A DNA stretch of 37,701 bases from Acidobacteriota bacterium (GTDB lineage: Bacteria; Acidobacteriota; Vicinamibacteria; Vicinamibacterales; UBA2999): NCBI GenBank assembly GCA_030650395.1, contig JAUSDY010000167.1, forward strand, positions 1-37,701, written 5' to 3'. How positions within the stretch are numbered: position 1 is the stretch's first letter; every line of letters starts with the position of its first letter. The position numbers were made by a program, and so were the translations under genes. This document shows, piece by piece, positions 2,303-36,556 of the stretch. The notes beneath the pieces were generated by a model, which worked only from the letters and a program-made list of their open reading frames with translations, was not told the DNA's origin and ran no database searches.

Positions 2303-2366
2303 CACCGGTCCATCCTGTCCACTGGGCCCCTCGGGGGCGGCCCGTCCGCGGACGCCTCCGTCAACA

Positions 2367-3023: not shown

Positions 3024-3125
3024 GGCAACACCCGCAGGTCGTTCGCGCTCAGCATGGGATGGCCGCACCTTTTCTCGCGTAATACCACCAGTTCACAATG
3101 ACGTGCGGTTTCTCTCGCGACCGGG

Positions 3126-5867: not shown

Positions 5868-5910
5868 GGCGTGCTCCTTTCGCCTTCCGCCTACGCGCTC
5901 AACGCTGCGA

Positions 5911-16608: not shown

Positions 16609-17013
16609 CTATCGGACCAGGGTCTCCAGCGTCACCGACGCCAGGGTCGCGCGGATGCCTTCATCAACTTCGTCGAACAGACGCCGCAGCGCGGCGGTCT
16701 GCGGTTTCGCCGGCTCGCCCCTGGCGCGGCCGTGCGCGAGATCGACCCCGGGCGTGCGCAAGGGCTCGAAGACCGCAACCACGTCAAGGACGGTGATCTC
16801 GCCACGCGGGCGCGCCAGGCGGTAGCCGCCGCCAATGCCGCGCGTACCCACGGCGATGCGCGCGCGCACGAGTTGCTGGAACACTTTGGCCAGCGCGGTC
16901 GCTGGGATGCCGTGCGGTCCGGCCACCTGCGCCACCGTGACCGGCTCGTCGCCGGCCCTCGCCATCTCGAGGGCGGCATGGAGCGCGTATCGGGAGAACT
17001 TGCTGAGCGTCAT
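16609..17013 (-). CDS. Rrf2-family transcriptional regulator, cysteine-free (BadM-like by context)
   Basis: 134-residue Rrf2 winged-helix protein: MTLSKFSRYALHAALEMA, the recognition part IPATALAKVFQQLVRARI, and the wing GTRGIGGGYRLARP. It contains no cysteine, so it cannot hold the [2Fe-2S] or [4Fe-4S] cluster of IscR, NsrR or RsrR. BadM of Rhodopseudomonas palustris, an Rrf2 repressor of benzoyl-CoA reductase genes, is a relevant relative, and its cluster also carries a GNAT gene (badL). Here the ATG overlaps the stop of a GNAT gene (ATGA). The first third is repeated at the end of the bcr operon (28025-28162). I infer, without proof, that this protein controls the bcr operon. Confidence 0.85.
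   Translation of the reverse strand: MTLSKFSRYALHAALEMARAGDEPVTVAQVAGPHGIPATALAKVFQQLVRARIAVGTRGIGGGYRLARPRGEITVLDVVAVFEPLRTPGVDLAHGRARGEPAKPQTAALRRLFDEVDEGIRATLASVTLETLVR
16909..17013 (-). repeat. Direct repeat copy 1 (5' part of rrf2)
   Basis: About 105 bp covering the start of the rrf2 gene. The same sequence at roughly 90 percent identity (10 mismatches in the 92 bp I aligned, 16922-17013 against 28071-28162) occurs at 28058-28162 in the same orientation. Confidence 0.8.
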
Positions 17014-17498
17014 TGATTGGCCAGCTCCGTCGACGCCTCGAGATCGAGATCGAGGCAGAGCCGTTGGGCCATCACGAAGCCTTCGCGCCGAAAGAACCCC
17101 AGCAGATCCGTGTTGTCCCAGCCGACTTCCGTCTGGAGCGTGTGAATGCCCAGGCCCTTGAGGTTCGTGCGCAGCTGGTCCATGAGCGCCGCGGCCACGT
17201 GGTGGCCACGGAAGCCCGGGTGCACATCGATCACGTCCATCACCGCCACGCGCTCCGTGATGCCGAACTCGCCGTAGAAGACCCGCGCCAGGAGGAAGCC
17301 GACGAAGACGCCCTTGAGCTCGGCCGCCAGCGAGACGGCGATACCTGTCTCGGAAAGCGCCTGCCTGAGCTTCAGCTTGAAGAACTCGTCGCGCCGGCGG
17401 CCGACATTCTTGGCGTCGAGCAGGGTGACGGCTTCGAGGTCGGTCGGTCGCAGATCGCGGACGACGACCGTGTGGTCGATGGGATCGAGCGTGTCCAT
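17010..17498 (-). CDS. GNAT-family N-acetyltransferase coupled to rrf2
   Basis: 162 residues from ATG 17498, which has GGAG with a 7-base spacer; an upstream ATG at 17528 has no such site. GNAT fold: RDLRPTDLEAV start, VAVMDVIDVHPGFRGHHVAAALMDQL with the acetyl-CoA pyrophosphate-binding loop (here RGHHVA, a variant of the usual R/Q-x-x-G-x-G/A), and GFFRREGF near the end. Substrate unknown. The stop overlaps the rrf2 start, so regulator and acetyltransferase are co-translated. A second GNAT of similar layout sits inside the bcr operon (33562-34041). In R. palustris the benzoate cluster includes a GNAT gene beside an Rrf2 gene, which is my reason to link this pair to aromatic metabolism. Confidence 0.8.
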   Translation of the reverse strand: MDTLDPIDHTVVVRDLRPTDLEAVTLLDAKNVGRRRDEFFKLKLRQALSETGIAVSLAAELKGVFVGFLLARVFYGEFGITERVAVMDVIDVHPGFRGHHVAAALMDQLRTNLKGLGIHTLQTEVGWDNTDLLGFFRREGFVMAQRLCLDLDLEASTELANQ

Positions 17499-17559
17499 GG
17501 AGATTCTCCGGGAAAACGTGAACGTCATGCAGCACTCGCCGGGATCGCTCGCCCCTGGT

Positions 17560-19031: not shown

Positions 19032-19116
19032 ACTCGGCTCTCCTCAGCCGCTCGGCGCAACCCGGTCATTCGCGCCTTCTATCGCCGCCCTGTCGCGGCG
19101 CGCCTTCATCCTCCTC

Positions 19117-20184: not shown

Positions 20185-20215
20185 AATAAGCCTCCACACT
20201 CGTGATTTAGTCTGA

Positions 20216-21028
20216 TTACTCCACCCTCAAGATCGCTGACCCGATTCCGACGACGACAAGATTGGCTGGTGCGGTGTAGTCAAGCGTCTCGACCACAAGA
20301 GCAGTCTTACCCGCCGGCAGCGCCGTACGTAGTCGCGCTCGTGCCTTATCTGTTTGTCCGGCCTTGGCCAGGACGACGCCGCGATCCGCACCGAGCAACG
20401 CCTCACCGTGTTCGTCTGTCGTGAACTTCGACCAGTCGTTGCGCCCGGCCCGTTGATATTCCACGGCGTGATTCGCGAGTGGCGCACCCGCGTCCGAGGT
20501 CAGTGTCACTCGATAACCCAGCGACGCTGCGACGGGCACATCCGACGGGAGGGCGGTCTCCGCCACGCGCGCTATCAACTCAACGCTCACTTCTGCACTG
20601 GCCTGGCCGCCTGTTCTGGCGGCGGCGGAACTCTTGAGATCGACGGTGATCGCCGGCGGAGCTTTGACCGCCTCGCTGCCATCCAGCCAGCGATACACAA
20701 TCGCCAACTCGGCGTCAGACGCCATTATGGGCGCAAAGGGCGGCATCTCCTTGCTCGGCAGCCTCACGTAACTCACGAATTTTCGCAGCGCGAGCGGCGT
20801 CTTGGTGAGGACGACCCCGCCCCCCGCCCCCTGTCCAGTTGTTCCATGGCAATTCCAGCATCCGAGGCGATCGACGTACACCTCCTCGCCTGACGGCACC
20901 GCCCGTTGCGCGTAGCTCACGGTGAGAAACGCGAACAAGAGCAGACCAACGATGCCCGACAACGCGTGGGCGGGCAGCCCGCCGGGCTGCCCGCTCGTTC
21001 CACGCGAGGAATTCGGAGTGGTCCTCAC
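20216..21028 (-). CDS. Secreted monohaem cytochrome c with C-terminal immunoglobulin-like region
   Basis: 270 residues from GTG 21028. A hydrophobic signal segment (about 22-40, ending SYAQ) is followed by one haem site CWNCH (57-61) with a likely axial Met in KEMPPF (about residue 96) and the usual MASDAELAIVYRWLDG helix. The C-terminal half (about 125-270) is beta-rich, with a TSDAGAPLANHAVEYQR...TTDEHGEALL pattern like a carboxypeptidase-regulatory or Ig-like fold. It starts 17 bp after the flavoprotein stop, so it is probably the electron donor for that flavoprotein, as small cytochromes are for periplasmic fumarate-reductase-type enzymes. The partner role is inferred from position. Confidence 0.75.
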   Translation of the reverse strand: MRTTPNSSRGTSGQPGGLPAHALSGIVGLLLFAFLTVSYAQRAVPSGEEVYVDRLGCWNCHGTTGQGAGGGVVLTKTPLALRKFVSYVRLPSKEMPPFAPIMASDAELAIVYRWLDGSEAVKAPPAITVDLKSSAAARTGGQASAEVSVELIARVAETALPSDVPVAASLGYRVTLTSDAGAPLANHAVEYQRAGRNDWSKFTTDEHGEALLGADRGVVLAKAGQTDKARARLRTALPAGKTALVVETLDYTAPANLVVVGIGSAILRVE

Positions 21029-21044
21029 GATTCGCTTCCGTCCA

Positions 21045-22598: not shown

Positions 22599-22622
22599 GA
22601 CGTTTACCCCTTGGGCCGACCC

Positions 22623-23060
22623 TTACTGGACCGCAATGACGTGCGCGACGTAAACGTCGAAACCGGGACCGCACGTGCCGCCGGATCGATAACTAGCCAC
22701 ACGCCAGCCCGGTTTGAACTCCTTGAATCCGGCGGAGCCGGGAAACACAATCGCCACGGTCGTAACCACGGTGGGGAACGGCGGGGGCTGCTCACCGCGC
22801 CCCGGGGGGGCTGCACGATCGACGAGATCCGCGTCCTGAAAGTAGACCTCACCGGAGCCGCAGTTCCCCACCTTGGTCGCGGCGGGCTTGAGCCCACTCT
22901 TCACGACGAGCACCTGCTTCAGGTTCTTGATCGTGCCGCTGGGCACGATGATGGTTGCGTTGTCGCCGAGCTGTTGGGCGGCAAGGCTCGTTGGCAACAG
23001 GGCCAGACAGAAAGCCAAAGCCGACAGCCCCATTCCGTGCAGAATCGAAGGTCTCTTCAT
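22623..23060 (-). CDS. Small secreted protein of unknown function
   Basis: 145 residues with a clear signal peptide ending SLAAQQ (about residue 30) and a GGAG ribosome site 8 bases before ATG 23060. The mature part is about 115 residues, has two cysteines (NCGSGEV and GTCGPGF) that could form a disulfide, and ends FDVYVAHVIAVQ. I recognise no family. It lies between the TonB receptor and the flavoprotein genes with gaps of about 25-37 bp, so it belongs to the same operon and may be a periplasmic binding or accessory protein. Confidence 0.6.
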   Translation of the reverse strand: MKRPSILHGMGLSALAFCLALLPTSLAAQQLGDNATIIVPSGTIKNLKQVLVVKSGLKPAATKVGNCGSGEVYFQDADLVDRAAPPGRGEQPPPFPTVVTTVAIVFPGSAGFKEFKPGWRVASYRSGGTCGPGFDVYVAHVIAVQ

Positions 23061-23096
23061 AACATTTACTCCGTTGATTCGATTGCCACGTCCTAC

Positions 23097-25976: not shown

Positions 25977-26083
25977 CACGCGCCTCCACTTCGGTTAACA
26001 AGACAATGTGTGCCCAGAGAGAATTCAGCGGAATTTGTCCATCGTACGTGGTGAGTACCTAGCAGGTCGTAACGCTCCCGCCT

Positions 26084-26097
26084 ATGACGGGCGTCAT
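26084..26097. promoter_or_regulatory. Fnr-type box between the TonB operon and the NHL gene
   Basis: CCTATGACGGGCGTCATAGG (26081-26100) is a perfect palindrome with 8-bp arms around the ATGAC-N4-GTCAT core. Towards the TonB gene a poor -10 candidate, TAGGTA (26056-26061, minus strand), has the 32-bp spacing and would give a leader of about 70 bases. Towards the NHL gene the sequence at that spacing does not resemble a -10. Direction is therefore uncertain, with the TonB operon favoured. A separate TACAAT (26171-26176) lies before the NHL gene. Confidence 0.6.
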
Positions 26098-26197
26098 AGG
26101 CGCGGTGGACTGCCCGCTGCCCGTTCGCCAGAAGCAGCAGATGTCCGTCAGTTATGTTGGCGGCAGGGGCTACAATTCCAGCCGGAGGCACGCGGCG

Positions 26198-27283
26198 ATG
26201 TTCGTACCAGGTCGCATGAGATTCACACGTTTCCTGCCCCTCGTGCCGGCGATTGCACTGGCGGGAGGGACGACCCTCATCCAGGGCCACGGTCAACCCG
26301 TCAGCGACCTGCCTAATCCGTATCGCGTTATCGAGAACTACTTCCAGCTCGCCGAGGGGAGGTGGTGGGCATCGACGAGCGCCGTCGATGTCGACATCGA
26401 CGGCAAGTCCATCTGGGTCGCCGACCGCTGCGCCGCCAACAGCTGCGCCGGATCGCCGCTGAACCCTGTCCTCAAGTTCGAGGACTCCGGCAAGCTGGTG
26501 AGAAGGTTCGGCGAGAAGATGTTCAATCTTCCGCACGGCATCCACGTGGACCGCGACGGGAACGTCTGGGTGACCGACGCCCAAGGACCGGACGGGAAGG
26601 ACCCGAACAGAAACGGCCGGGGGCACGCCGTCTACAAGTTCAGTCCCGAGGGTAAAGTGCTGCTCACGCTTGGAAAGCCGGGCGTGCCCGGCGACGGCAC
26701 CGGCGAGCTCCTCAACGGGCCGTGCGATGTCGTGACTGCCCCGAACGGCGACGTCTTTGTCGCGGATGGACACAGCGGCCAAGAGCGCACCGCCCCGCCC
26801 GACGCGGTGGCGCGCATCGTGAAGTTCACAAAGGCCGGCAAGATCATCAAGTCGTGGGGCAAACTGGGCTCGGGGCCGGGCGAGTTCAGGACGCCGCACG
26901 GCCTGGCCTTCGACTCTCAGGGCCGGCTGTTTGTCGCCGACCGGGGCAACAACCGGATCCAGATCTTCGCTCAGGAGGGGACGTTCCTGCTCGAGTGGAA
27001 GCAGTTCGGCCGATTGAGTGGGATCTTCATCGACAAAAGCGACATCCTCTATGCCGCCGACTCGGAGTCGGGCGACACCGTCAACCCGGGTTGGAAGCGC
27101 GGGATCCGGATTGGGAGCGCCAGAGACGGAAAGGTGACGTACTTCATTCCGGACGCAGACCCCGATCCAAAACCGACCGGGCAGAGTGGGGCAGAAGGTG
27201 TCGCGGCGGATGCCCGCGGCAATGTGTACGGCGCCGGAGTCAACGCCGGCGCGCAGGCATTGAAGAAGTACGTCAGGCAGTAA
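26198..27283 (+). CDS. Secreted NHL-repeat beta-propeller protein
   Basis: 361 residues from ATG 26198, which has GGAGG 9 bases upstream; a second ATG at 26216 lies just inside. A signal peptide (RFLPLVPAIALAGG) is followed by a six-bladed-type propeller of NHL repeats: LPHGIHVDRDGNVWVTDAQG, GPCDVVTAPNGDVFVADGH, TPHGLAFDSQGRLFVADRGN, and AEGVAADARGNVYGA. Such proteins resemble the peptidyl-alpha-hydroxyglycine lyase fold and often bind ligands or partner proteins. No catalytic assignment is possible from sequence alone. Divergent from the TonB operon and perhaps co-regulated from the shared intergenic region. Confidence 0.72.
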   Translation: MFVPGRMRFTRFLPLVPAIALAGGTTLIQGHGQPVSDLPNPYRVIENYFQLAEGRWWASTSAVDVDIDGKSIWVADRCAANSCAGSPLNPVLKFEDSGKLVRRFGEKMFNLPHGIHVDRDGNVWVTDAQGPDGKDPNRNGRGHAVYKFSPEGKVLLTLGKPGVPGDGTGELLNGPCDVVTAPNGDVFVADGHSGQERTAPPDAVARIVKFTKAGKIIKSWGKLGSGPGEFRTPHGLAFDSQGRLFVADRGNNRIQIFAQEGTFLLEWKQFGRLSGIFIDKSDILYAADSESGDTVNPGWKRGIRIGSARDGKVTYFIPDADPDPKPTGQSGAEGVAADARGNVYGAGVNAGAQALKKYVRQ

Positions 27284-27630
27284 GAGGCGCGTTCGCCAAC
27301 GCGACCGAGCGGAAAGGGGTGACGAGCGGCCGTTCATACGGCTGTCCGTCGATCGGCCCGGGTGCCCGCCGCTGCGTTGCACATCTCCCACCTCCGGGTT
27401 GGATTGGTTACAGCTACAAGTGCGACGCGGGCCGGACGCTATGAATGTGAGCGTCAGTGCATAAGGAATGCCAAGGCTATCCAAAGAAACCACGCCCTGG
27501 CCGCGAGGACTAGGCCAGATAAAGGCGCGGAGGTGTTGGCCGTGGCCGAAGGCCGTCGGCTCACCGGGGCACCAGGGCACCGGCTTGCGGGGTTTTCCGC
27601 AGCGACCGCGAATATTCCTCCGTGGCGGGG
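27284..27630. other. Intergenic stretch with no gene seen
   Basis: About 350 bp after the NHL gene. I see no reading with recognisable homology on either strand, no convincing promoter palindrome (a degenerate half-like CATACGGCTGTC occurs near 27345) and no clear terminator. It leads directly into the gene-fragment patchwork at 27631-28162 and may be decayed sequence. Confidence 0.5.
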
Positions 27631-27711
27631 CTAGAACCGCATCCTGACCCCGAGCTGGACCTGTCGCGCAGATGTGATCGAATACCCCGGGCCGTCGTAT
27701 GAATCGCCCAT
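27631..27711 (-). pseudogene. C-terminal tail of a TonB-dependent receptor gene
   Basis: The minus-strand reading GPGYSITSARQVQLGVRMRF followed by TAG (27631-27633) has the typical end of an Oar-like TonB receptor: a final strand of alternating residues of the form RQVQLGVRxRF with a terminal Phe. Nothing upstream continues the barrel, because from about 27703 the opposite strand codes for a cytochrome fragment. Only about 25 residues remain. It is not derived from the intact receptor at 23097-25976, whose tail differs. Identification rests on a short motif. Confidence 0.45.
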
Positions 27712-28053
27712 GGCAACCTGCAGTCGCCGAAGTCGCTCGAAGGGCAGTGCAACCAGTGCCATGGTCCGGGCAAGCCGCAGACGCGGGCGGACCGTGCCGC
27801 CAACGCCCGGTTGATGATGACCGAGGTCGCCGCCGTCCGCGCGACGCTCAAGGAAGCCAGTTCGCTCATCAAACGGGTGAAGGACAAGGCCGAACGCGCC
27901 AAGTTCCAGGAGGCCTGGCAGCAGGCGGAAGTGCCGCTGATCGAAGCAAGCAATGCCGGTCACGAGTTTGTCTTCGACAACCTCAAAGAACGACTCGAGC
28001 GCGCCAGGATCCGCGCCAATGTTCTTATGGACCGCATCGCAAACCGGCAATAG
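27703..28053 (+). pseudogene. C-terminal remnant of a multihaem cytochrome c
   Basis: In frame after a stop at 27700-27702 the plus strand reads HGNLQSPKSLEGQCNQCHGP (haem motif CNQCH encoded at 27748-27762), then a long helical tail (VAAVRATLKEASSLIKRVKDKAERAKF... and FDNLKERLERARIRANVLMDRIANRQ) ending at 28053. There is no start codon or signal peptide before the haem motif. A TTG at 27811 could start an 80-residue protein, but this would leave the haem site outside. I interpret it as the 3' end of a longer multihaem cytochrome gene cut at its 5' side. The parent family is not clear; the haem followed by a helical C-terminal domain is reminiscent of multihaem oxidoreductases. Confidence 0.6.
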
Positions 28054-28162
28054 GAGGGCCGTGCGGGCCGGCCACTTGCGCCACCGTGACCGGCTCGTCG
28101 CCCGCCCTCGCCACCTCGAGGGCCGCGTAGAGCGCGTAACGCGAGAACTTGCTCAGGGTCAT
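28025..28162 (-). pseudogene. Truncated rrf2 gene at the end of the bcr operon
   Basis: ATG 28162 overlaps the bcrD stop (ATGA). The 45-residue reading MTLSKFSRYALYAALEVARA...QVAGPHG matches the first 35 residues of the Rrf2 regulator at 16609-17013 almost exactly. It then leaves the homology at about 28055 and stops at 28025. The recognition helix and wing are lost, so it cannot work as a regulator. Its coupling to bcrD shows that the bcr operon once ended with, or was joined to, an rrf2 gene. The break lies just where the convergent cytochrome fragment ends (28053). Confidence 0.8.
28058..28162 (-). repeat. Direct repeat copy 2 (5' part of rrf2)
   Basis: Matches 16909-17013 in the same orientation at about 90 percent identity, at a distance of 11.15 kb. 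Differences are mostly at third codon positions, so both copies evolved under coding selection before this one broke. Confidence 0.8.
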
Positions 28163-29019
28163 GAACTCGCTAACTCCGCAGCGCCCGCAGGAAGGCGGCG
28201 GCCGAGACCGGCCAAGCGCCGCGCACGGAAGGCGCCCCACAGTGCGGCGCCGATGGCGCCGGCCAGCATCGACTGCGGATGGCTGCGGATGTCGACGGGC
28301 GACTTTTGCGCGATGGCGGCCTCGGCGAGCGCGGCCATCAGCCCCTCGTCGGCCGCGAGGCCACCGGTGATGAGCACGACGTCCTTGAGGCCGGCCGACA
28401 CCACGAGCTTCAGGTAGCGGCCCGCCATCGACTGGTGGATGCCGCGCAGGATGTTCGGAATGGTGATGCCGCGAGACACCATGTTGATGACGTCGGTTTC
28501 GGCCAGCACCGCGCAGATCGACGAGCACGCCTCGGGCGCGTCGCCCGTCCTGGACAGCCGTCCGATCTCCTCGAGCGTGACACCGAGGTAGCGCGCGATG
28601 TTCTCGAGGAACTGACCAGACCCCGATGCGCACTGGCTGGTCATCCGGTAGCCGAGCACCCTGGCGTGCTCGTCCATGCGAACGGCCCTGGCGTGCAGCG
28701 CGCCGATATCGACCACGCCCCGGGCGGCCGGCTCCAGGAACAAGCCGCCGCGCGCGTGGGTGGTCATGCCGTAGAAGTGGCCAGTGCGGAAGGGCACCGA
28801 CTCGCCCTCGCCCGTGGTGGCGACGTAGCCCACGTCGGCGCGCGTCACACCGGCGCTGTCGAGCGCGGCCTGGTAGGCGGTTTCGACGACGGCGAGCGAA
28901 TCGCGCCGGCGCACGCGCTCCGTAACGCCCGCGAGGAACTGCTCGCCTGCCTGGTCGCCGGTGTCCACAACGGCCACCTTGATGGCAGCCGATCCCACGT
29001 CGATGCCGGTGGTGATCAT
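28159..29019 (-). CDS. bcrD: Benzoyl-CoA reductase subunit D (ATPase activator subunit)
   Basis: One of the two ASKHA-fold subunits of class I, ATP-dependent benzoyl-CoA reductase, which drives electrons to the ring at low potential by ATP hydrolysis. It has 286 residues, close to known BcrD/BadG. Phosphate-binding motif GIDVGSAAIKVAVV (5-18) and ADP-side motif ITGGLAADEG. Cluster-ligand cysteines expected by homology with HgdC are Cys130 (SQCASGSGQF) and Cys169 (SSICAVLAETDV). It follows bcrA by 13 bp with GGGAG before its ATG. Its stop overlaps the start of the rrf2 remnant. No ferredoxin gene follows, unlike in Thauera-type clusters. Confidence 0.92.
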   Translation of the reverse strand: MITTGIDVGSAAIKVAVVDTGDQAGEQFLAGVTERVRRRDSLAVVETAYQAALDSAGVTRADVGYVATTGEGESVPFRTGHFYGMTTHARGGLFLEPAARGVVDIGALHARAVRMDEHARVLGYRMTSQCASGSGQFLENIARYLGVTLEEIGRLSRTGDAPEACSSICAVLAETDVINMVSRGITIPNILRGIHQSMAGRYLKLVVSAGLKDVVLITGGLAADEGLMAALAEAAIAQKSPVDIRSHPQSMLAGAIGAALWGAFRARRLAGLGRRLPAGAAELASS

Positions 29020-29032
29020 CGTCGCTCCCGAC

Positions 29033-30325
29033 TCACGCGGCCGCCGCGTTGCGCAGCGCGAAAAGCGCCGCGCCCAGCGCGCCGGTGTAGATCGAATCCT
29101 CTGAGATGTTGACCGTCCGCGCGCCGTAGTTCTCCTCGACCAGGGTCCGCAGGGCCGCCACGGCCGCCTGGTTCCGTGCCACGCCGCCCGTGAACGTGAA
29201 TTCGTCCTTCACGCCCCCCGACCGCGCCAGCAGGGACATCGCTCGCAGCACGATCGCGCGATGCAGCCCGGCGAGGATGTCCTCACGTCTTTCTCCGAGC
29301 GACAGCCGTTCGCGCAACTCCGCGCCGGCAAACACGGTGCACGTCGAGTTGATTCGTACCGGCGCCGACGACTGGCTCGCAATCGGCCCCAGCTCGTGAA
29401 GGCCGAGGCTCATTTCGTCGGCGATATAGCCCAGGTAGCGGCCGCAGCCGGCGGCGCACCGGTCGTTCATCTGGAACGAGGTGACGATGCCCTGCTCGTC
29501 CACCTGGATGGCCTTGGTGTCCTGTCCGCCGATGTCGAGCACCGTGCGCGTGCGCGGGAACATCGAGTGAGCGCCGAGCCCGTGGCAGAGGATCTCGGAT
29601 CGGATGCGGCCTTCGGGGAACGGCAGGCGCTGGCGCCCGTAGCCGGTGCCGACGCTGCCGATCTGTTCGAGCGTGCGCGCCGATACGCGCGCCACCGCCG
29701 TCGTGAGCGCGGGATCCGCGCCGGGCAGCGCCTCGAGCGCGACCGCGGCATGCTCGTCAAAGCGGCCCGCCGCCTCGGCGGAGTTCTCCACGTCCAGGAT
29801 GGCCTTGTCGAAGAGCCCGGCCAGCAGGTCGAAGCTGACGCCGGTCGCGCGCGCCTCCTCCTCGGCGAGGGCGAGGTAGCGGCTGCCGGCCAGGTCGCGG
29901 AAGAAGTCACTCTTCCGCCGCGCGCCCTCGGCATAGAGCGCGTCGACCTCCGCGGTCATGCGGCCGGCGATGCGATCGACGATGCCGGTGGCCGCGGGCG
30001 GCCTGGTGAGCAGCCGCGAGAGGAAGCGGCGCAGCTCGGTGTCGAGCACCCGCAACTGCGATCGGTACTGCTCGGCCCGGAACTTTCGTTCGAGCGCGCC
30101 GATGAGAGTCGGCGCCTGCGCCGGGTCCCGCGCGATCGATTGGAACTCGCCGGCAATCAGTGAGAAGCGCGCGTTGATCAGCGCCTCGCTGAGGGCCACG
30201 CTGCAGGCGACGTCGTAGTTGCTGCGCGAATTGGTGATGCCGCGACCGAGCACCGCGCCGTCTTCGCCCAGCACCACGGCCTTGGTGGTGGTCGATCCGA
30301 GATCGATGCCCACCGTGTAGTTCAT
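29033..30325 (-). CDS. bcrA: Benzoyl-CoA reductase subunit A (ATPase activator subunit)
   Basis: 430-residue ASKHA ATPase that pairs with BcrD across a shared [4Fe-4S] cluster. GIDLGSTTTKAVVL (6-19) binds phosphate. FTFTGGVARNQ (about 376-386) is the nucleotide-side motif. Cys290 (NDRCAAGCGRYL) and Cys329 (NSTCTVFAGAEL) are the likely cluster ligands. It has the extra central segment (about 60-240) that distinguishes BcrA/BadF from the shorter D subunit, and its length fits BcrA (about 435). Its ATG overlaps the bcrB stop by 4 bases. Confidence 0.93.
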   Translation of the reverse strand: MNYTVGIDLGSTTTKAVVLGEDGAVLGRGITNSRSNYDVACSVALSEALINARFSLIAGEFQSIARDPAQAPTLIGALERKFRAEQYRSQLRVLDTELRRFLSRLLTRPPAATGIVDRIAGRMTAEVDALYAEGARRKSDFFRDLAGSRYLALAEEEARATGVSFDLLAGLFDKAILDVENSAEAAGRFDEHAAVALEALPGADPALTTAVARVSARTLEQIGSVGTGYGRQRLPFPEGRIRSEILCHGLGAHSMFPRTRTVLDIGGQDTKAIQVDEQGIVTSFQMNDRCAAGCGRYLGYIADEMSLGLHELGPIASQSSAPVRINSTCTVFAGAELRERLSLGERREDILAGLHRAIVLRAMSLLARSGGVKDEFTFTGGVARNQAAVAALRTLVEENYGARTVNISEDSIYTGALGAALFALRNAAAA

Positions 30326-31617
30326 GACGACGCCCCGGCCCGCTTCTGGTCGAGCATCTGGAAGTACGACTCGAGGCGGTTCTTGATGTTGGCCGCGGAG
30401 AAGTAGCGCGGGTCGACGAGGTCGCTCTCGATGAAGCCGCCAGGCCGTCCCGATCGCGCCTCGACCTCGCGCAGGATGTGGAGCTGCCCGGCGCTGAACG
30501 AGTTGCAGCTCTTCACCGAGTTGATGAGGAAGCCGTCGGCGCGATACTCCGACAGGTAGCGCGTGAGCAGGTCGATCCGTGTCGGCAGGCTGAGGTTCGT
30601 ATAGCAGCCCAGGCAGTACTCCGCCAGCGTCTCGAGCGGGTGATCGGGATCGTGGCGGAATCCGAGGTCGTAGACACCGCCAACCTTCGAATAGGTGGAC
30701 GCCACCGCCACTGCGCCTTCGTCCGCGAACATCTTCCAGAACTGCCGGAAGCTGGTCCAGTTCGGCGGGCCTTCCACGACGATGCGGAAACGCTCGCGCT
30801 CCACCTCCCCGTCGGGCGTCACCGGACCCTTGCCCTGCCTGATGCGCCCGGCGATCTCCTCTCGAAGCTCACGGTAATAGTCGACGGCGTCCGCGGTGCC
30901 GCGAAACGCGCTGAAGATCGGTCCGACGTAGTAGACCGCGCCGAAATAGGCGTCGATGGGCGAGGGCACGTTCTTCGCCGACTGCAGCACCCACACGAGA
31001 TCGTCCTCGGCCTGCGCCGATCGGGCCAGGTGCGCCCTGAGCCGATCCTCGTCGTACTGGCGGCCGGTCACCTCCTCGAGCTTGGGGATGACGACGTTCT
31101 TGAGTTGATCGACGACGTAGGTGCGCATGCTGTCGGTGATGCGGCCGTCGGCCTGGTACGGCACGTGGAGCATCGCCACCGGGCAGTGGTACTCCTCGCG
31201 GAGCAGCTCGAACCACTTCATGAACGTGAAGCAGCCGGTGTAGGAGAGCAGCAGCAGATCGGGGCTCGGCAGGCGCTGGCCGGTCGGACCGATGTTGCCC
31301 GACTTCATCATCCCGATGTCGCTCTTCACGTAGGTGCAGACATCCTCGGAGTGCCCCAGTTTTTCCGCCGCCGCGATGTACTCGGCCGTCTTGCCCCGCA
31401 TGGCCGATTGCAGCGCGTTGATCTCGGGCAGCACGGGCAGCACGTCGAAGCTGAGCAGGAGTTCGGTGAGGTTGCCGGGCACGAACGTGTAGGCGCAGCG
31501 GGTGCCGGTATCGGGCGCCGCGGCCAGGCGATCGAAATGGCGCGCGATCATCTCCTTCTGCCGGACCTGGCTGCTGTCCTTGTGGGCGGTCGTCGCGACG
31601 ATGGGGGCGGCGCTCAT
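30322..31617 (-). CDS. bcrB: Benzoyl-CoA reductase subunit B
   Basis: 431 residues from ATG 31617 (GGAG upstream, 4-base overlap with bcrC). Member of the 2-hydroxyglutaryl-CoA dehydratase D-component family and, with BcrC, carries the substrate site and two [4Fe-4S] clusters. Conserved cysteine segments are LLSYTGCFTFMKWFELL, AEYCLGCYTNLSLPTRIDLL and NSVKSCNSFSAGQLHILREVE. The same frame stays open upstream to 32706, but that part is the shadow of bcrC and has no homology. Length agrees with known BcrB/BadE (about 430-440). Confidence 0.93.
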   Translation of the reverse strand: MSAAPIVATTAHKDSSQVRQKEMIARHFDRLAAAPDTGTRCAYTFVPGNLTELLLSFDVLPVLPEINALQSAMRGKTAEYIAAAEKLGHSEDVCTYVKSDIGMMKSGNIGPTGQRLPSPDLLLLSYTGCFTFMKWFELLREEYHCPVAMLHVPYQADGRITDSMRTYVVDQLKNVVIPKLEEVTGRQYDEDRLRAHLARSAQAEDDLVWVLQSAKNVPSPIDAYFGAVYYVGPIFSAFRGTADAVDYYRELREEIAGRIRQGKGPVTPDGEVERERFRIVVEGPPNWTSFRQFWKMFADEGAVAVASTYSKVGGVYDLGFRHDPDHPLETLAEYCLGCYTNLSLPTRIDLLTRYLSEYRADGFLINSVKSCNSFSAGQLHILREVEARSGRPGGFIESDLVDPRYFSAANIKNRLESYFQMLDQKRAGASS

Positions 31618-32789
31618 GCTCCACTCCAAAGCTTGATGGAATCCGCAAACGTGCCGGCCTGCTCGCGAATCACCTGGAACTGCCCGTTGTTCTCCGCGTA
31701 CTTGAACGCGGTCCAGGGGATCGCCGTCCGCTCCACGGCGCGGACGGCCATCGGCTGGTCGAGCAGGGCGGGATCGCAGAAGCTGGCCGCGCAGAAGAGC
31801 ACGCCCTCGGCGCCGCTTTCTGCCGCGCGCTGATTGAGGTCGGCGCCCTTCACCTCGTCCGCGATATAGCGGGTGGGGCTCGCCACCGCGTCGGTCAGCA
31901 GCGCATCCACGATCGACTGCAGCGGGTCGCCGTCCACCGGAATATCCGAACGGATGAACCGGTGCACCTGCACGAAGTCGTCGTCGACGATGTAGCAGCC
32001 GGCGCGCTCGAGCGTCTTGATCAGCGCCAGCGGCGGCTGCTCGCAGAACGAGCCGGTCACGAGCACGCGCGCCTGATCCTGCGGCCGCCTCGAGCGGTCG
32101 GCCGAAGCCAGCGCGAGGTACTCCGCGAACATCGTCGTCGATTCCTCGACGGGGACCAGCAGCGCGGCGCGCAGCACGACGTAGAGCTCGTGGGTGGGCA
32201 CCTTCCACGGCTCGCGGCGGCGCAAGGCGTAGAGCTCGCGCACCAGCCGGCGGTTCTCGTTGTAGAGCGCGATCGACTGGCGGAGGGCGGCGGCGGTGAG
32301 CGCGCGCGCGCCGCGGGCCTCGAGTGCCTGCGAGAGCGACTCGAGATCGCGGCGGTAGAACGCACCCCCGATCGCCGGATCGAAGTTCTGCGGCACGTCG
32401 AGGTAATGCACCAGCACCTTCGGGAACAGCATCTGCCACATGCCGGAGAGGTTGCGGATGACGTCGCAGATGGCCGGGAAGATCAGGCCGTCGAGCGCGT
32501 CGTAACTGCCGTTGAGGCCGAGCTCGACGGTGCTGCGGGGCAGGTGGCAGATGTAGGACTGGTAGTAGGCGTCGCCCTTGATGATCTCGAGATCCGGACG
32601 CCCGCCCATCAGGCCCACCGGCAGCACGCCCTGCGCGTGCAGCAGCTCGCGCGGCACGTAGATCGGAAGAAAGCCCACGGCGAGGCCGCCCGTGCGCGCC
32701 TTCCACTCGCGAACGGCGGCGAGTGCCTGGTCGCGGAACAGCGCGCCGGCGCGATCGACGAGGGCGGTCAGGCGGGGGTCCTCGCTCAT
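31614..32789 (-). CDS. bcrC: Benzoyl-CoA reductase subunit C
   Basis: 391 residues from ATG 32789 with GGAGG and a 5-base spacer; known BcrC/BadD proteins are about 380-390. Same superfamily as BcrB. Marker segments are GFLPIYVPRELLHAQGVLPVG, SYICHLPRSTVELGL, VTGSFCEQPPLALIKTLERAG and FCAASFCDPALLDQP, with cysteines for the cluster and substrate site. Starts with an ATGA overlap on the dch stop and ends with one on bcrB. In-frame sequence upstream of 32789 belongs to the dch region and is not part of the protein. Confidence 0.93.
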   Translation of the reverse strand: MSEDPRLTALVDRAGALFRDQALAAVREWKARTGGLAVGFLPIYVPRELLHAQGVLPVGLMGGRPDLEIIKGDAYYQSYICHLPRSTVELGLNGSYDALDGLIFPAICDVIRNLSGMWQMLFPKVLVHYLDVPQNFDPAIGGAFYRRDLESLSQALEARGARALTAAALRQSIALYNENRRLVRELYALRRREPWKVPTHELYVVLRAALLVPVEESTTMFAEYLALASADRSRRPQDQARVLVTGSFCEQPPLALIKTLERAGCYIVDDDFVQVHRFIRSDIPVDGDPLQSIVDALLTDAVASPTRYIADEVKGADLNQRAAESGAEGVLFCAASFCDPALLDQPMAVRAVERTAIPWTAFKYAENNGQFQVIREQAGTFADSIKLWSGA

Positions 32790-33559
32790 GCGTCCCTCCA
32801 CACCGCGGGCCGCCGCTCGATAAACGCGCTCAGGCCTTCGATGGCGTCGGCGGTCGACATCAGGCCGTCGAGGTACAGCCGTTCGATGGCGGGCAGCTCC
32901 GCGGCCATGCGCGCGCGCAAGCCGGTTCGCGACGCCCGCACCACGTAGCGCAGGCTTGACGCCGACTTCGGCACCAGGTAGGTGCGCGCCCACGCGATCG
33001 CCGCCTCGGCGGGGTCGCCGTCCACGACCTCGTCGACCAGCCGCATGGCCAGGGCTTCATCGGCGGTGGCGGAGTGGCCTGAGAGGCAGAGGTCATCGGC
33101 GGCGCCGCGGCCGACGCGGTCGGCCAGCACAAGCGACGCGATCGGCGCGAACACGCCGAGGACGATCTCCGGCTGTCCCAGCCGCGCGTCACGGGCGGCG
33201 AACACGCGGTGACAGAGCGAGACGAGCTCCAGCCCGCCGCCGAGGCACTGGCCCCGGACGGCCGCCAGCACAGGCACGGCGCTGTCGAGCATCGCCATCA
33301 ACGCGCCATGGAAGCGCGCCAGCATCTCCGTGACCTGCGGCGGCAGGTGTTCCGCCACGCTGGCGCCGAACGAGAAGTGGGGGCCGTGTCCCTCGAGACA
33401 GATGGCCTTGAGGTGCGGGGCGGCGGCCGCGTTCCGGAACAGGTCGGCGAGTGCATCCATCACCGCCGCGTCGAGCACGTTGCCTTTCGATCCGCCGATG
33501 GTCGCGCGCCAGATGGCGCCGTCGTCGAGGGGCGAAACGGTAAGGGGAGCACTTACCAT
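32786..33559 (-). CDS. dch: Cyclohexa-1,5-diene-1-carbonyl-CoA hydratase
   Basis: 257-residue crotonase-fold enzyme that adds water to the dienoyl-CoA made by benzoyl-CoA reductase, giving 6-hydroxycyclohex-1-ene-1-carbonyl-CoA. Oxyanion-hole segments: EGHGPHFSFGASVAEHLP and VRGQCLGGGLELVSLCHRVFAA. Length matches Dch from Thauera (about 258). I prefer ATG 33559, with GGAG and a 6-base spacer, over ATG 33565, which overlaps the preceding stop as ATGA but leaves no spacer. The assignment to Dch instead of a generic enoyl-CoA hydratase rests on length and its place between oah and bcrC. Confidence 0.85.
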   Translation of the reverse strand: MVSAPLTVSPLDDGAIWRATIGGSKGNVLDAAVMDALADLFRNAAAAPHLKAICLEGHGPHFSFGASVAEHLPPQVTEMLARFHGALMAMLDSAVPVLAAVRGQCLGGGLELVSLCHRVFAARDARLGQPEIVLGVFAPIASLVLADRVGRGAADDLCLSGHSATADEALAMRLVDEVVDGDPAEAAIAWARTYLVPKSASSLRYVVRASRTGLRARMAAELPAIERLYLDGLMSTADAIEGLSAFIERRPAVWRDA

Positions 33560-33561
33560 CG

Positions 33562-34041
33562 TCATCTCCGTCCCGGTGCCGGCTCAAGGGCCAGCTCCAG
33601 TTGTGTGAAACTGCCGCCGACGAACCCGTTCGATCGGAAGAACGCGAGCATCGAAACATCGTTGCGCGCCACCATCGTCCGCACCGTGGACACGCCCGCG
33701 CGACCGAATCGCCGCCCGGCGTCGGCCACGAGCGCCGAGCCAATGCCGTGGTGGGCCTGGTCCGGATCGACGCCCACCGCGAAGATCCACCCGCACGGTG
33801 CGGAGCCGAACTCGAAGGCGCGAACCTCGCCCAGCAGGTACCCGGACAGACTCGCGCCGTCGCGCGCGGCGAGGCCGACGCGCGAGGACGAGCGGCCCGG
33901 AGCCACGAACTCGTGGAAAAGCCTCTTCCAGTTAGCAGGCTTGCGGCGGCCGGTCAGCCGGGCATCGAGCCGTATGACGGCGGCGAGGTCGGCAGGGCGG
34001 AGGGGACCGATCGAGGGTGTGATCTGCGTCATCGGTGTCAT
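33562..34041 (-). CDS. GNAT-family N-acetyltransferase embedded in the bcr operon
   Basis: 159 residues from ATG 34041, which overlaps the oah stop as ATGA; its own stop overlaps the upper candidate start of dch in the same way. GNAT marks: IGPLRPADLAAVIRLDAR at the start, IFAVGVDPDQAHHGIGSALVADAGRRF with the acetyl-CoA loop Q-A-H-H-G-I-G, and ARNDVSMLAFFRSNGFVGG near the end. Similar in plan to the GNAT coupled to rrf2 (17010-17498). In R. palustris, lysine acetylation controls CoA ligases of the benzoate pathway, so an acetyltransferase acting on an enzyme of this route is a reasonable idea, but the substrate is not known. Confidence 0.82.
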   Translation of the reverse strand: MTPMTQITPSIGPLRPADLAAVIRLDARLTGRRKPANWKRLFHEFVAPGRSSSRVGLAARDGASLSGYLLGEVRAFEFGSAPCGWIFAVGVDPDQAHHGIGSALVADAGRRFGRAGVSTVRTMVARNDVSMLAFFRSNGFVGGSFTQLELALEPAPGRR

Positions 34042-35132
34042 CCGCGGTCGTGCGCCTTCGTGAGGATCTCGTCGACGAGCGGTTCCGACCACGCGGCGCC
34101 CTCGGCGAGGCGTTGCCGCAGCAACAGCATGTCGGCCTCCCGGCACGCCTTGCTCCCCTCGTTGAAGGCGCGGAAGCCCGCGCGCGCTTCGGTCATCATG
34201 TTGAGGCTGAGCCATGCGCGGTTGCCCTCCTTGTTGCGGTCCCAGTGTTCGAGCTTGTGCTTGCGCACGCTCTCGATGGTCTTCGACAGGCAGCCGGGGA
34301 ACGTGTTGGCCAGCTTGAACGCGAGCGCGCTCACCGCGGCGTCGAGGCCCGACAGGTCGACCTCGCCACGATCGACCAGCGCCTTCGCCTCGTCGCGCGC
34401 CGCGCCCGCCTTCAGCTCGCCATACACGATGCGTCCCTCGTCGAGCCACCGGTCCGTCACCACGAACGGACTGGCAATGAAGCGGCCGTCGACCTTGAGG
34501 GCCGGCACTACGGCAGTGACGAGGCCGAGCCGGTGCGCCTTGTACGCGCTCCACTGCTCGCAGAGCGTGCAGCTTTCCATGGCCGCCTCGATGCCGACGA
34601 AGAGCGGCAAGAAGTCCGTGCTGCCGCCGTCGGGCGCGGACCCGTGGCGCGGCCCCGCCTGGCCGAACACCGCCATGTCCTGCGCCACCGAGAAGTCGCA
34701 GGCCATGCCGATCTCCTGCCCGCCCGCGATGCGCATGCCGTTGACGCGGCAGATGACCGGCTTGTCACACATCAGGATGGCGCTCACCATGTCGTTGAAG
34801 AGCCGCAGGTACTGCCGATACTCCTCGGGCTGGCCCGCGTAGTACTCGGCGTACTCGGCCGTGTTGCCGCCCGTGCAGAACGCGCGCGTGCCGCTTCCGG
34901 TGAACACGACGGCCACCGCGGCGCGATCGTTCGAAGCGCGCCGCATCCCGAGAATGACCCCCTTCACCATCTCGGTGGTGTAGGAATTCAGCTGGCCGGG
35001 ATTGTCGAGCGTGATGCGGACCACATGCAGGCCGCGCACGTGGGCCCCGGCCGAATCTCGCAACGGGGTCTCTTCGTACTGGATGCCCGGCGCAGCCTGC
35101 CGGGCCGTGAGGTCGTGGTCCTTCAAAGTCAT
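34038..35132 (-). CDS. oah: 6-oxocyclohex-1-ene-1-carbonyl-CoA hydrolase (Oah/BamA)
   Basis: Ring-opening hydrolase of the crotonase superfamily, converting 6-oxocyclohex-1-ene-1-carbonyl-CoA to 3-hydroxypimelyl-CoA. It has 364 residues from ATG 35132; known Oah/BamA are about 370-380. The segments FCTGGNTAEYAEYYAGQPEE, CRVNGMRIAGGQEIGMACDF and GPRHGSAPDGGSTDFLP are signature sequences of this enzyme, which is used as a functional marker for anaerobic aromatic degraders. The ATG overlaps the had stop (ATGA). Upstream in-frame sequence to 35306 lies within had and is not part of the protein. Confidence 0.94.
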   Translation of the reverse strand: MTLKDHDLTARQAAPGIQYEETPLRDSAGAHVRGLHVVRITLDNPGQLNSYTTEMVKGVILGMRRASNDRAAVAVVFTGSGTRAFCTGGNTAEYAEYYAGQPEEYRQYLRLFNDMVSAILMCDKPVICRVNGMRIAGGQEIGMACDFSVAQDMAVFGQAGPRHGSAPDGGSTDFLPLFVGIEAAMESCTLCEQWSAYKAHRLGLVTAVVPALKVDGRFIASPFVVTDRWLDEGRIVYGELKAGAARDEAKALVDRGEVDLSGLDAAVSALAFKLANTFPGCLSKTIESVRKHKLEHWDRNKEGNRAWLSLNMMTEARAGFRAFNEGSKACREADMLLLRQRLAEGAAWSEPLVDEILTKAHDRG

Positions 35133-36208
35133 GATTCGCTCTCGGGGATGAGGACGATGCGCCGCAACACACCACCGGCGTGCAACTCGGCGAAGACGTC
35201 GTTGATGGTGCCGAGCGCACGGCGCTCGATGAACGGCGCGAGCGCGATGCCGCCTTGCAGCACGAGATCGACAATGGCTGGATAGTGCTCGGGGAGGCAG
35301 CCCCAATTGCCTTGCGCCGTGGCGTCGAACGCCATCAGGTTGGAGAGCCGCAGCTCGACGGCCTTCGGCGTGTAGCCCACCACCGAGAGGTAGCCGCCGT
35401 GGCCGAGCAGGGCAAAGGCGGTGGCCTGGCCGCCGGGGCTGCCGGAGGTTTCGAAGATCTTCGTGCGCCAGGTCGGCACGCCGCGCGATTCGGCGAAGGC
35501 CCGCACCTGCTTGCGCAGTTGTTTCGAATCCACAGTGGAGGGATCGATCGTGAGCGACGCGCCGTGTGGCGACACCTGCGCGAGCCGCTGCGCGCTGACG
35601 TCGATCGCGACCACGGCCGCGCCCATCGCCGCCGCCACCTGGATCCCGAAGCCGCCGACGCCGCCGGCCCCGACGAAGATCGCCACGTCGCCGTTCGCAA
35701 GGCCGCTTCTGACGATGGCCTGGTAAGGCGTCGAGATGGCGTCGGCCACCACGGACAAATCCATCAACTCGATGCCGCCGGGATTGACCCCGGCGTTACG
35801 CAGGTCCGGCACCGGGCAGAGGCCCCGGGCGGGCAGCCGGAGATGCGTGGCGAAACCGCCGTGCACGTCGCTGCCGGGGAAAATCTGCTTGGGACAAATC
35901 TGGCCGCGGCCCGCCCGGCAGGCTGCACACTCGCCGCAGGGCAGCACGGCGGGGACGACCACGTCGCGGCCCACCCACGATTCCGCGCCGGCGCCGGCTT
36001 CGACGACGGTGCCGCTGATCTCGTGGCCGAGCGTGAGCGGCCAGGGGTGGCGGGTGGGGACCCCGTCGTAGAAAAACCCCAGATCCGTGTGGCAGACGCC
36101 GCAGCCGGAAACCCGGATGATGACCTCGCCGGCGCCGGCGGCTTCCTCGCGCGCCTCGTACCGCATCGGGCTGGCGGGCTGGCGAACGACCCACGACGAG
36201 ACCTGCAT
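35129..36208 (-). CDS. had: 6-hydroxycyclohex-1-ene-1-carbonyl-CoA dehydrogenase
   Basis: Zinc-containing medium-chain alcohol dehydrogenase, 359 residues, that oxidises the hydroxyacyl-CoA from Dch to the 6-oxo compound with NAD+. Catalytic zinc site CGVCHTD (36-42) and GHE (61-63). Structural zinc cysteines are Cys91, Cys94, Cys97 and Cys105. NAD-binding loop GAGGVGGFG (180-188). Length fits Had from Thauera (about 368). First gene of the operon, ATG 36208 with GGGAGG about 8 bases before. The leader and an AT-rich inverted repeat (36248-36271) lie upstream. General family membership is certain; the specific name follows from the operon. Confidence 0.9.
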   Translation of the reverse strand: MQVSSWVVRQPASPMRYEAREEAAGAGEVIIRVSGCGVCHTDLGFFYDGVPTRHPWPLTLGHEISGTVVEAGAGAESWVGRDVVVPAVLPCGECAACRAGRGQICPKQIFPGSDVHGGFATHLRLPARGLCPVPDLRNAGVNPGGIELMDLSVVADAISTPYQAIVRSGLANGDVAIFVGAGGVGGFGIQVAAAMGAAVVAIDVSAQRLAQVSPHGASLTIDPSTVDSKQLRKQVRAFAESRGVPTWRTKIFETSGSPGGQATAFALLGHGGYLSVVGYTPKAVELRLSNLMAFDATAQGNWGCLPEHYPAIVDLVLQGGIALAPFIERRALGTINDVFAELHAGGVLRRIVLIPESES

Positions 36209-36247
36209 GACGGCCGCCTCCCGGGTCCGCGCGACTGCGGCGGGCCT

Positions 36248-36271
36248 AAATAGGTATTACAGTTCCTATTT
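36248..36271. promoter_or_regulatory. AT-rich inverted repeat in the promoter of the benzoyl-CoA operon
   Basis: AAATAGG (36248-36254), 10-bp spacer, CCTATTT (36265-36271): perfect 7-bp arms, about 40 bp before the had start codon. A nested pair TAGGTA (36251-36256) and TACCTG (36271-36276) overlaps it. The surrounding DNA is strongly GC-rich, so this AT-rich block stands out. On the minus strand a TAATAC (-10-like) lies within it, so a bound protein would probably block transcription. No Fnr-type box is present. The binding protein is unknown; the cysteine-free Rrf2 protein is my candidate. Confidence 0.5.
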
Positions 36272-36286
36272 ACCTGTATACCCCCG

Positions 36287-36556
36287 TCACCGGCCGGGAG
36301 TCAAGTCCGGAAACTTGCCTCCATTCCGCGCGCTTATCCGTGTGAGATCTGCCGGGACCTTCGAGAGCGCGGCTGCGGCCGGGCCGTTGCCTTTGCCTTC
36401 CTTGCCATGACAAACGGCGCAGTAGGTGTTGAACATCAACGGTGCGTCCGAGACGGGGACCTGTTTGATTGGCCCCTTCTCGATCTTTGGCTGCGCGACG
36501 GCGGCGCCAGCGGAAAACGCGAGAACGACGGCGGCGACGAGGACATGTCTGATCAT
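36287..36556 (-). CDS. Secreted monohaem cytochrome c, C-terminally truncated
   Basis: 89 residues from ATG 36556, preceded by a strong GGGAGGGG site. A signal peptide (VLVAAVVLAFSAGAAVAQ) is followed by one haem site CAVCHGKEGKGNGPAAAAL. The reading then follows the usual family course (VPADLTRISARNGGKFPD) but stops five residues later. Related cytochromes continue for 40-60 residues with the axial methionine. There is no methionine after CAVCH here, so the haem would lack its normal sixth ligand. The break (about 36305) lies immediately upstream of the bcr operon promoter. Probably the 5' part of a gene cut by the rearrangement that placed the bcr operon here. Confidence 0.7.
   Translation of the reverse strand: MIRHVLVAAVVLAFSAGAAVAQPKIEKGPIKQVPVSDAPLMFNTYCAVCHGKEGKGNGPAAAALSKVPADLTRISARNGGKFPDLTPGR

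Follow-up and report, generated by a model that had tools for sequence, protein, structure and literature searches.

A benzoyl-CoA reductase operon with an embedded BadL-like N-acetyltransferase gene in an acidobacterial metagenome-assembled genome: a candidate induction switch

The stretch of DNA analysed here (hereafter the window) comprises the 37,701 nucleotides of contig JAUSDY010000167.1 in the assembly GCA_030650395.1, a metagenome-assembled genome (MAG) of an Acidobacteriota bacterium. On its minus strand it carries an eight-gene operon for the reduction and ring opening of benzoyl-coenzyme A (benzoyl-CoA), within which a gene for a GNAT-family N-acetyltransferase, hereafter GNAT-A, lies between oah and dch. 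The best reading of this embedded gene, together with the class I operon around it, is that it belongs to an induction switch of the BadL/BadM type, to which a probability of about 0.72 is assigned. The type of reductase operon is known; a BadL-type gene inside such an operon, with a link to an Rrf2 gene and a shared dyad, appears to be new, since no report of it in Acidobacteriota or Planctomycetota was found in searches of open-licence PubMed Central papers, mostly by their listings. The reading would explain a puzzling extra gene, and the prediction consists of a 26-bp candidate operator, a repressor and an inducer-making enzyme.

The initial annotation, made from the sequence alone, had proposed a complete class I benzoyl-CoA operon at 28159-36208, and its eight genes and their span were borne out by the family scores (NCBIfam and Pfam):

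35129..36208, minus strand: had, 6-hydroxycyclohex-1-ene-1-carbonyl-CoA dehydrogenase (TIGR03201, 461.3 bits; cut-off 338.65, passed)
34038..35132, minus strand: oah, 6-oxocyclohex-1-ene-1-carbonyl-CoA hydratase (TIGR03200, 557.3 bits; cut-off 464.45, passed)
33562..34041, minus strand: GNAT-A, BadL-like N-acetyltransferase between oah and dch (PF00583, 32.3 bits; cut-off 20.7; in a clade with GNATs that are BadL by position)
32786..33565, minus strand: dch, cyclohexa-1,5-diene-1-carbonyl-CoA hydratase (TIGR03189, 270.3 bits; slightly below the cut-off of 292.5)
31614..32789, minus strand: bcrC, benzoyl-CoA reductase subunit C (TIGR02263, 492.3 bits; cut-off 421.15, passed)
30322..31617, minus strand: bcrB, benzoyl-CoA reductase subunit B (TIGR02260, 712.4 bits; cut-off 486.55, passed)
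29033..30325, minus strand: bcrA, ATPase/activase subunit (TIGR02259, 552.7 bits; slightly below the cut-off of 578; PF01869, 254.9 bits)
28159..29019, minus strand: bcrD, ATPase/activase subunit (TIGR02261, 367.6 bits; cut-off 312.85, passed)

BcrA and Dch score below the cut-offs, yet the family given is in each case the best match by a wide margin. Read from 36208 to 28159, the gene order is had-oah-GNAT-dch-bcrC-bcrB-bcrA-bcrD, with the GNAT gene at the place first noted for it. Nearly all junctions had been described as ATGA overlaps, which holds for six of the seven (had/oah, oah/GNAT, GNAT/dch, dch/bcrC, bcrC/bcrB and bcrB/bcrA, each of four bases) and fails for bcrA/bcrD, the only non-overlapping junction, with a gap of 13 bases. 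The eight genes, presumably transcribed as a single unit, constitute a benzoyl-CoA reductase operon of class I (ATP-dependent, Thauera type) with its ring-opening enzymes, as far as activity can be predicted from sequence.

The occurrence of the embedded gene was surveyed in loci fetched for comparison (L numbers, their genomes bearing G numbers), in which genes were called by a home-made GC3 rule and the calls are rough. An A-type GNAT gene lies between oah and dch in 16 of the 63 named loci that show both oah and bcrC: nine of 19 in Acidobacteriota, six of 21 in Planctomycetota and one of the three loci without a phylum, with none among 14 in Pseudomonadota and six in Myxococcota. It is also embedded in six further loci of the host's phylum (L174 and L178-L182), among which L178 repeats L053 and L182 repeats L046. 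The same position in the 16 named and the six further loci rules out a chance insertion. The dch gene was not found in L180, so that the GNAT there lies between oah and bcrC; nor was it found between oah and bcrC in L063, L068, L072, L088, L096, L098 and L100. Among 396 sampled Acidobacteriota genomes, seven have an A-type GNAT above 200 bits, all with a BcrB-family match on the same contig, which in one of them (G343) is below the BcrB cut-off, being of the Mbd type. Weaker GNAT matches occur in 24 further genomes of the sample, some of them beside other reductase types.

A tree of 80 GNATs, from which the fragment L076_12584 (fewer than 110 residues) was left out, unites 17 embedded GNATs (the window and 16 loci) with five alphaproteobacterial GNATs encoded beside Rrf2 genes in a clade of 22 rows (support 100/99). 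In a larger tree of 94 rows (85 of them different), the 25 rows of embedded GNATs (99/93) are sister to 28 alphaproteobacterial rows (100/97) within a joint clade of 53 rows (99/81), and the second GNAT of the window, GNAT-B, stands apart (100/99). At an E-value of 1e-25, an A-type GNAT was found in 21 of the 198 genomes in the family of G397. The surroundings were examined in six alphaproteobacterial GNAT genomes; in all six the GNAT gene has a BadM-like Rrf2 gene as its neighbour, and in five there are reductase genes within 20 kb. The clusters of G569 and G524 contain badI, an SDR gene, a weakly Had-like stretch at the place of badC, badDEFG, a ligase and a ferredoxin, with Rrf2 and GNAT on the opposite strand and neither oah nor dch in view, and this layout fits the account of Rhodopseudomonas palustris in the BadL paper (PMC6191541). 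The alphaproteobacterial sister GNATs are BadL by position, lying beside BadM-like Rrf2 genes in R. palustris-type clusters. GNAT-A, which carries the GNAT domain (PF00583), falls into one clade with them (99/81) and has a GNAT fold in its predicted structure (predicted local distance difference test score 89), is most likely a small-molecule N-acetyltransferase of the BadL type that would make an inducer.

A precedent for such an enzyme is available in R. palustris. According to the published report (PMC6191541), BadL homologues acetylate aminobenzoates, the acetamidobenzoates made by BadL bind BadM and release it, and deletion of badM makes badL dispensable; BadM itself could not be acetylated, and a small-molecule effector that relieves BadM repression is the conclusion drawn there. 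The same paper reports BadL homologues in Magnetospirillum magneticum (amb3392) and Geobacter metallireducens (gmet_2096), and another paper describes BamK, a benzoate-induced N-acetyltransferase, in the class II cluster of G. metallireducens (PMC1924859).

A counterpart of BadM is encoded in the window, where three further features are relevant:

16609..17013, minus strand: intact Rrf2-family regulator, BadM-like, without cysteines (PF02082, 93.6 bits)
17010..17498, minus strand: GNAT-B, the second GNAT (PF00583, 42.4 bits; 82% identical to GNAT-B of L042)
28058..28162, minus strand: remnant, the opening 35 codons of another Rrf2 gene, immediately after bcrD (94 of 105 bases shared with the intact copy, 93 of 105 with L042)

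The co-occurrence of the GNAT and Rrf2 genes was counted in 54 loci having oah, bcrC and bcrD in view and either 2500 bases or more beyond bcrD or a match to Rrf2, the latter clause slightly favouring Rrf2-positive loci; six hand-picked loci (the window, L174 and L179-L182) are included. Eighteen loci have GNAT-A as well as Rrf2, L046 and L182 among them being one sequence, and 34 have neither; Rrf2 occurs alone in two (L069 and L104) and GNAT-A alone in none (Fisher test, 2e-12, kinship ignored). No link was found for GNAT-B, which is present with Rrf2 in 16 loci and without it in 24, with Rrf2 alone in four and neither in ten (Fisher test, 0.53).

Alignment of five regions upstream of had revealed a candidate operator, immediately preceded by a promoter-like pair of hexamers:

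36299..36304, minus strand: promoter-like -35 hexamer TTGACT (by eye, alignment of had upstream regions; 18-nt spacer)
36275..36280, minus strand: promoter-like -10 hexamer TATACA (by eye, same alignment)
36247..36272, no strand: perfect dyad TAAATAGG-N10-CCTATTTA, proposed operator of the BadM-like Rrf2 (had upstream alignment)

About 39 nt separate the dyad from had, and 2 nt separate it from the preceding TTGACT-N18-TATACA, a pair that a consensus scan of the region before had did not list, the rule of the scan calling for a second hexamer with T as its sixth base. The dyad is unique in the window at up to three mismatches (0.00 expected), and its arms are kept among the loci while the inner ten bases vary. 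The dyad was counted in 53 loci with at least 150 bases upstream of had and, for the named loci, with both oah and bcrC visible; the duplicates L046/L010 and L053/L009 are included in the 20 GNAT-A loci. At up to three mismatches it precedes had in 15 of these 20 (13 of 18 without the two duplicates) vs one of the 33 others (L113), and at up to four mismatches in 17 of 20 vs two of 33. A scan of the 1.80 Mb of fetched DNA gave 21 matches, compared with two in block-shuffled sequence. Eighteen of the 21 lie before had in GNAT-A loci (L076 and L179 contribute two each, L178 and L182 repeat L053 and L046, and that of L044 is off the aligned place); of the other three, L113 has one before had, L082 one before its BadL-position GNAT, and L089 the third. 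With a matrix built from four alphaproteobacterial sites upstream of badL, the window dyad scores 37.0 bits, and sites were detected before badD in all three R. palustris-type clusters and before had in all seven hand-chosen alphaproteobacterial loci, each above 200 of 200 shuffles.

Taken together, these elements suggest the following scheme. BcrAD would hydrolyse ATP and push low-potential electrons into BcrBC, which would reduce benzoyl-CoA, and Dch, Had and Oah would take the product on to 3-hydroxypimelyl-CoA. The BadM-like Rrf2 (16609-17013) would bind the dyad at 36247-36272, where transcription of had is expected to start, and would thereby block the operon. GNAT-A would acetylate an aromatic amine (aminobenzoate in R. 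palustris), and the acetylated product would act as the ligand that releases the repressor, so that leaky expression would accumulate inducer until the operon opens fully. Induction would be self-reinforcing because gnatA lies inside the operon opened by its product.

Several observations weigh against this scheme. The window Rrf2 gene adjoins GNAT-B, the pair being 11 kb from the operon, and the copy directly behind bcrD is a remnant. When corrected for kinship, the association of GNAT-A with Rrf2 comes down to five independent pairs, of which about 4.5 go the expected way and none the other (p 0.06-0.125), and that with the dyad to four pairs, 2.6 of them going the expected way (p 0.25-0.625); the pairs are few and neither link is significant. 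The dyad is missing at four mismatches from the GNAT-A loci L064, L058 and L084 and present at three to four mismatches in L113 and L110, both without GNAT-A. Selection of the four matrix sites went by their match to the acidobacterial arms, the best being taken, which makes the score of the window partly circular, and the L092 site alone is not above shuffles (p 0.235); therefore, independent support comes only from the agreement of the inner bases and from the new sites. Only five of 23 badL-upstream regions were matched at p <=0.02, a direct scan of three badD promoters with the acidobacterial arms gave no match at up to six mismatches, and the matrix detected no site before the GNAT-B-Rrf2 pair of the window. 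The comparison of GNAT-A covers genes that are BadL by position. Foldseek matched GNAT-A with 796 PDB chains at E <=0.001, a generic GNAT fold with no substrate class favoured, and a search of solved structures by sequence gave weak GNAT matches only. The published gel-shift effect in R. palustris required 10 mM acetamidobenzoate (PMC6191541).

Other roles were considered for the two GNATs. The initial annotation had suggested that the embedded enzyme adjusts pathway enzymes by lysine acetylation, by analogy with the acetylation of CoA ligases in R. palustris. GNAT-A does have the GNAT fold, and the 50 top-ranking Foldseek rows include N-terminal protein acetyltransferases besides small-molecule ones. 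However, it groups with BadL-position GNATs by tree and gene order and co-occurs with Rrf2 and the dyad, and the paper on the BadL homologues, which did not acetylate BadM, concludes that the substrate is a small molecule (PMC6191541). A protein lysine acetyltransferase is thus very unlikely. It is hardly more credible that GNAT-B, as the gene adjoining Rrf2 in the window, L042, L043, L046, L055, L061 and other loci, makes the Rrf2 effector instead of GNAT-A, as 24 of the 40 loci bearing GNAT-B are without Rrf2 and none of the 18 bearing GNAT-A is, the A-type stands beside Rrf2 in five alphaproteobacterial loci, and L174 has GNAT-A and Rrf2 with no GNAT-B in view. A purely metabolic GNAT-A, which would acetylate and so disarm amino-aromatics that otherwise block the pathway, its link with Rrf2 being indirect, would use the same chemistry as BadL and would suit a gene placed among catabolic genes; it leaves unexplained that no locus among the 54 has GNAT-A without Rrf2, and is the most improbable of these proposals.

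Whether the contig belongs to its bin bears on the host. The initial annotation had considered an acidobacterial host, which is correct as far as names go: in the BcrB scan of named genomes the closest match (96% identity) is in MELE01000027.1, titled 'Acidobacteria bacterium RIFCSPLOWO2_12_FULL_67_14b', and ten more rows from Acidobacteria follow it. BcrB is above the cut-off in 33 of the 396 sampled Acidobacteriota genomes and was not found in any of the five same-genus and nine same-family genomes of that sample. The window NarG is 91% identical in G400 (the genome of L043) and was not found at E 1e-50 in the five same-genus and four same-family genomes searched. NarG is also missing from G399 (the genome of L042). 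This distribution could reflect either horizontal gain or a binning error, and it is from these absences, with the 91% identical NarG of G400, that an origin of the contig (C18, 37.7 kb) in another acidobacterium would be argued. Against such an error, horizontal gain accounts for the same facts. Composition does not decide, since the tetranucleotide correlation of window pieces with three other contigs of the bin is 0.73-0.82 (0.82-0.86 among those contigs), that with the acidobacterial L042 is 0.74-0.81, and even the alphaproteobacterial L114 gives 0.76-0.78. A binning error is considered rather doubtful, and the contig is assigned to the bin provisionally. The operon points to ATP-dependent anaerobic dearomatisation in a phylum for which, among the papers listed in literature searches on the subject (titles, beginnings of abstracts and passages of some), no bcr operon and no such dearomatisation was found.

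Beyond the window, the BadL/BadM-type switch may extend to other reductases. In L174 (8359-17045), had-oah-GNAT-A-dch-SDR-Rrf2 lies beside a Mbd-type reductase (MbdN, 503 bits), with no GNAT-B in view; apparently, a different reductase can be combined with the switch and the ring-opening genes. On balance we lean slightly towards regarding GNAT-A, Rrf2 and TAAATAGG-N10-CCTATTTA as one module across Acidobacteriota, Planctomycetota and Alphaproteobacteria, joined to differing class I aryl-CoA reductases (Bcr in the window, Mbd in L174). If so, ring breakdown in several bacterial phyla would be gated by an acetylated aromatic amine, and in Acidobacteriota and Planctomycetota the enzyme that makes the inducer would be built into the operon that is induced.

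The assignment of the window reductase to the Bcr (Thauera) type is based on BcrC, BcrB and BcrD, which exceed their cut-offs, and on BcrA (552.7 vs 578), for which it is by far the best family. A placement of BcrA-D among other CoA reductases or dehydratases, which would have told against the operon, was not observed: the window BcrB scores 712.4 bits as BcrB vs 148.8 as 2-hydroxyisocaproyl-CoA dehydratase (HadB) and 74.5 as BzdO. MbdO scores 199.8 against the window BcrB by phmmer; in the alignment with MbdO (9g87_A, a solved 3-methylbenzoyl-CoA reductase subunit), three of the BcrB cysteines fall opposite cysteines, and two BcrA cysteine motifs align with MbdQ. In a BcrB tree of 110 rows from a short search, limited to BcrB-type rows and drawn without the dehydratase outgroup, the window joins 12 other acidobacterial rows (support 99), nested in a mix of 36 rows (89) from Acidobacteriota, Planctomycetota, one Gemmatimonadota and nine without a name.

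Comparison with known systems helps to define the operon. The bcr cluster of Thauera aromatica has had, oah, dch and bcrCBAD and the same pathway in common with the window, which differs in having no adjoining fdx or kor genes, an inserted GNAT gene and an acidobacterial host. The Mbd (3-methylbenzoyl-CoA) reductase belongs to the same superfamily, the window BcrC having 200 bits to MbdN, whereas the window reductase is of the Bcr type by NCBIfam. The Bzd-type benzoyl-CoA reductase of Azoarcus is likewise of the class I family, and the window is far below the Bzd cut-offs (BzdO 74.5 of 448.6; BzdN 115.2 of 453.8). The bad cluster of R. palustris (badDEFGAB, badL and badM) shares with the window a class I reductase with BadFG-type ATPases, a BadL-type GNAT, an Rrf2 gene and an operator-like dyad before the operon. 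In contrast to that cluster, the window has its GNAT inside the operon, between oah and dch, and its Rrf2 gene 11 kb off with a second GNAT; its ring opening would proceed by Dch, Had and Oah instead of BadK, BadH and BadI, and the operon includes neither ferredoxin nor ligase.

The remainder of the pathway was searched for in the bin. A missing CoA ligase to feed benzoyl-CoA would also have spoken against the operon, and a benzoate-CoA ligase family protein is present on contig C12 (606.4-607.2 bits; cut-off 375.25), neighboured by an aromatic-acid/H+ symporter-like protein (271.6 bits, below the cut-off of 418.55) and TRAP transporter genes. On contig C156 a KorA-type protein scoring 549 bits against a cut-off of 482.75 is encoded together with a KorB-like protein below its cut-off and a GltD-like oxidoreductase. 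Of the three components that the initial annotation had proposed to look for, the ligase and KorAB-like genes for 2-oxoglutarate:ferredoxin oxidoreductase were thus recovered, and a Thauera-type ferredoxin was not: with the ferredoxin of the L092 bcr cluster as query, the best E-value in the bin was 0.097, compared with 1.5e-53 in the control genome G397. All of these points on the bin fall if C18 does not belong to it. As had been pointed out, there is no ferredoxin gene among the genes of the operon. Two small Fer4_7 frames (90-91 aa) occur elsewhere in the bin, where small ferredoxins that may serve as donors are placed at C171:145744-145905 and C63:44963-45124. Clustering of the genes called in 80 named loci assigned a ferredoxin family to 12 of them, each titled as Pseudomonadota; it replaced a search for a double CxxCxxCxxxC motif that had no match in any locus, ferredoxin-bearing ones included. 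In the window, narG (5911-9555, 1503 bits), narH (4356-5867) and narI are above their cut-offs and narJ is just under; therefore, nitrate respiration is the likely electron sink, as predicted from these genes. The narGHJI genes (region 2-10433) are accompanied downstream by QrcA/QrcB-like genes (2-3026, below cut-offs) and upstream by a haem-binding-like gene.

The region behind bcrD varies among the loci. In many relatives bcrD is followed by GNAT-B, which in the window shares 31% identity with GNAT-A, and in L042 bcrD, GNAT-B and Rrf2 are adjoining in this order. In the window the Rrf2 remnant stands behind bcrD and the intact GNAT-B-Rrf2 pair, itself joined by an ATGA overlap, about 10.5 kb further. 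The intervening 10.5 kb or so (17500-28057) encodes a flavin mononucleotide dehydrogenase, a cyclase, a flavin adenine dinucleotide protein, a large CarboxypepD_reg protein and an NHL protein. Homology of the remnant stops sharply after 35 codons; a copied repeat is ruled out by its difference of about one in ten from both other copies, which tells against an assembly chimera, and a strain mixture may be its source. The stretch preceding GNAT-B (17496-17567) at first seemed to resemble the end of bcrD, a likeness not upheld on re-examination.

Eight Rrf2 proteins (L046, L049, L052, L054, L055, L058, L061 and L064) keep three to four cysteines and that of L084 has one; those of the window and its nearest kin, L042 and L043, have none. 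The cysteines kept elsewhere are possible iron-sulphur ligands, and judging from this pattern iron-sulphur sensing may have been lost in the window branch. Upstream of the badD-like gene in L213 and L215 (G569 and G524), near the proposed BadM site, lies TTTGATCCGCATCAAA, an FNR-box-like palindrome.

Two GNAT domains in one open frame are found behind bcrD in L079 (4516-5448), L093 (5362-6273), L095 (6724-7665) and L118 (13441-14355), from three Myxococcota and a Lambdaproteobacteria MAG; in their stead, two separate GNAT genes lie side by side in several loci from Alphaproteobacteria. An SDR gene (FabG/BadH-like) lies between bcrD and GNAT-B in L043 (13463-14182) and not behind bcrD in L042 or the window; its cluster covers 21 loci, with the position checked in L043, L046, L179, L180 and L182. 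In L177 (5342-9782), from a genome of the same phylum, a GNAT gene adjoins a Bzd-type reductase (BzdO 680.6 bits; cut-off 448.6). A third activase gene of the BcrAD family is present elsewhere in the bin (G000:C171:202181-203098, 129.2 bits).

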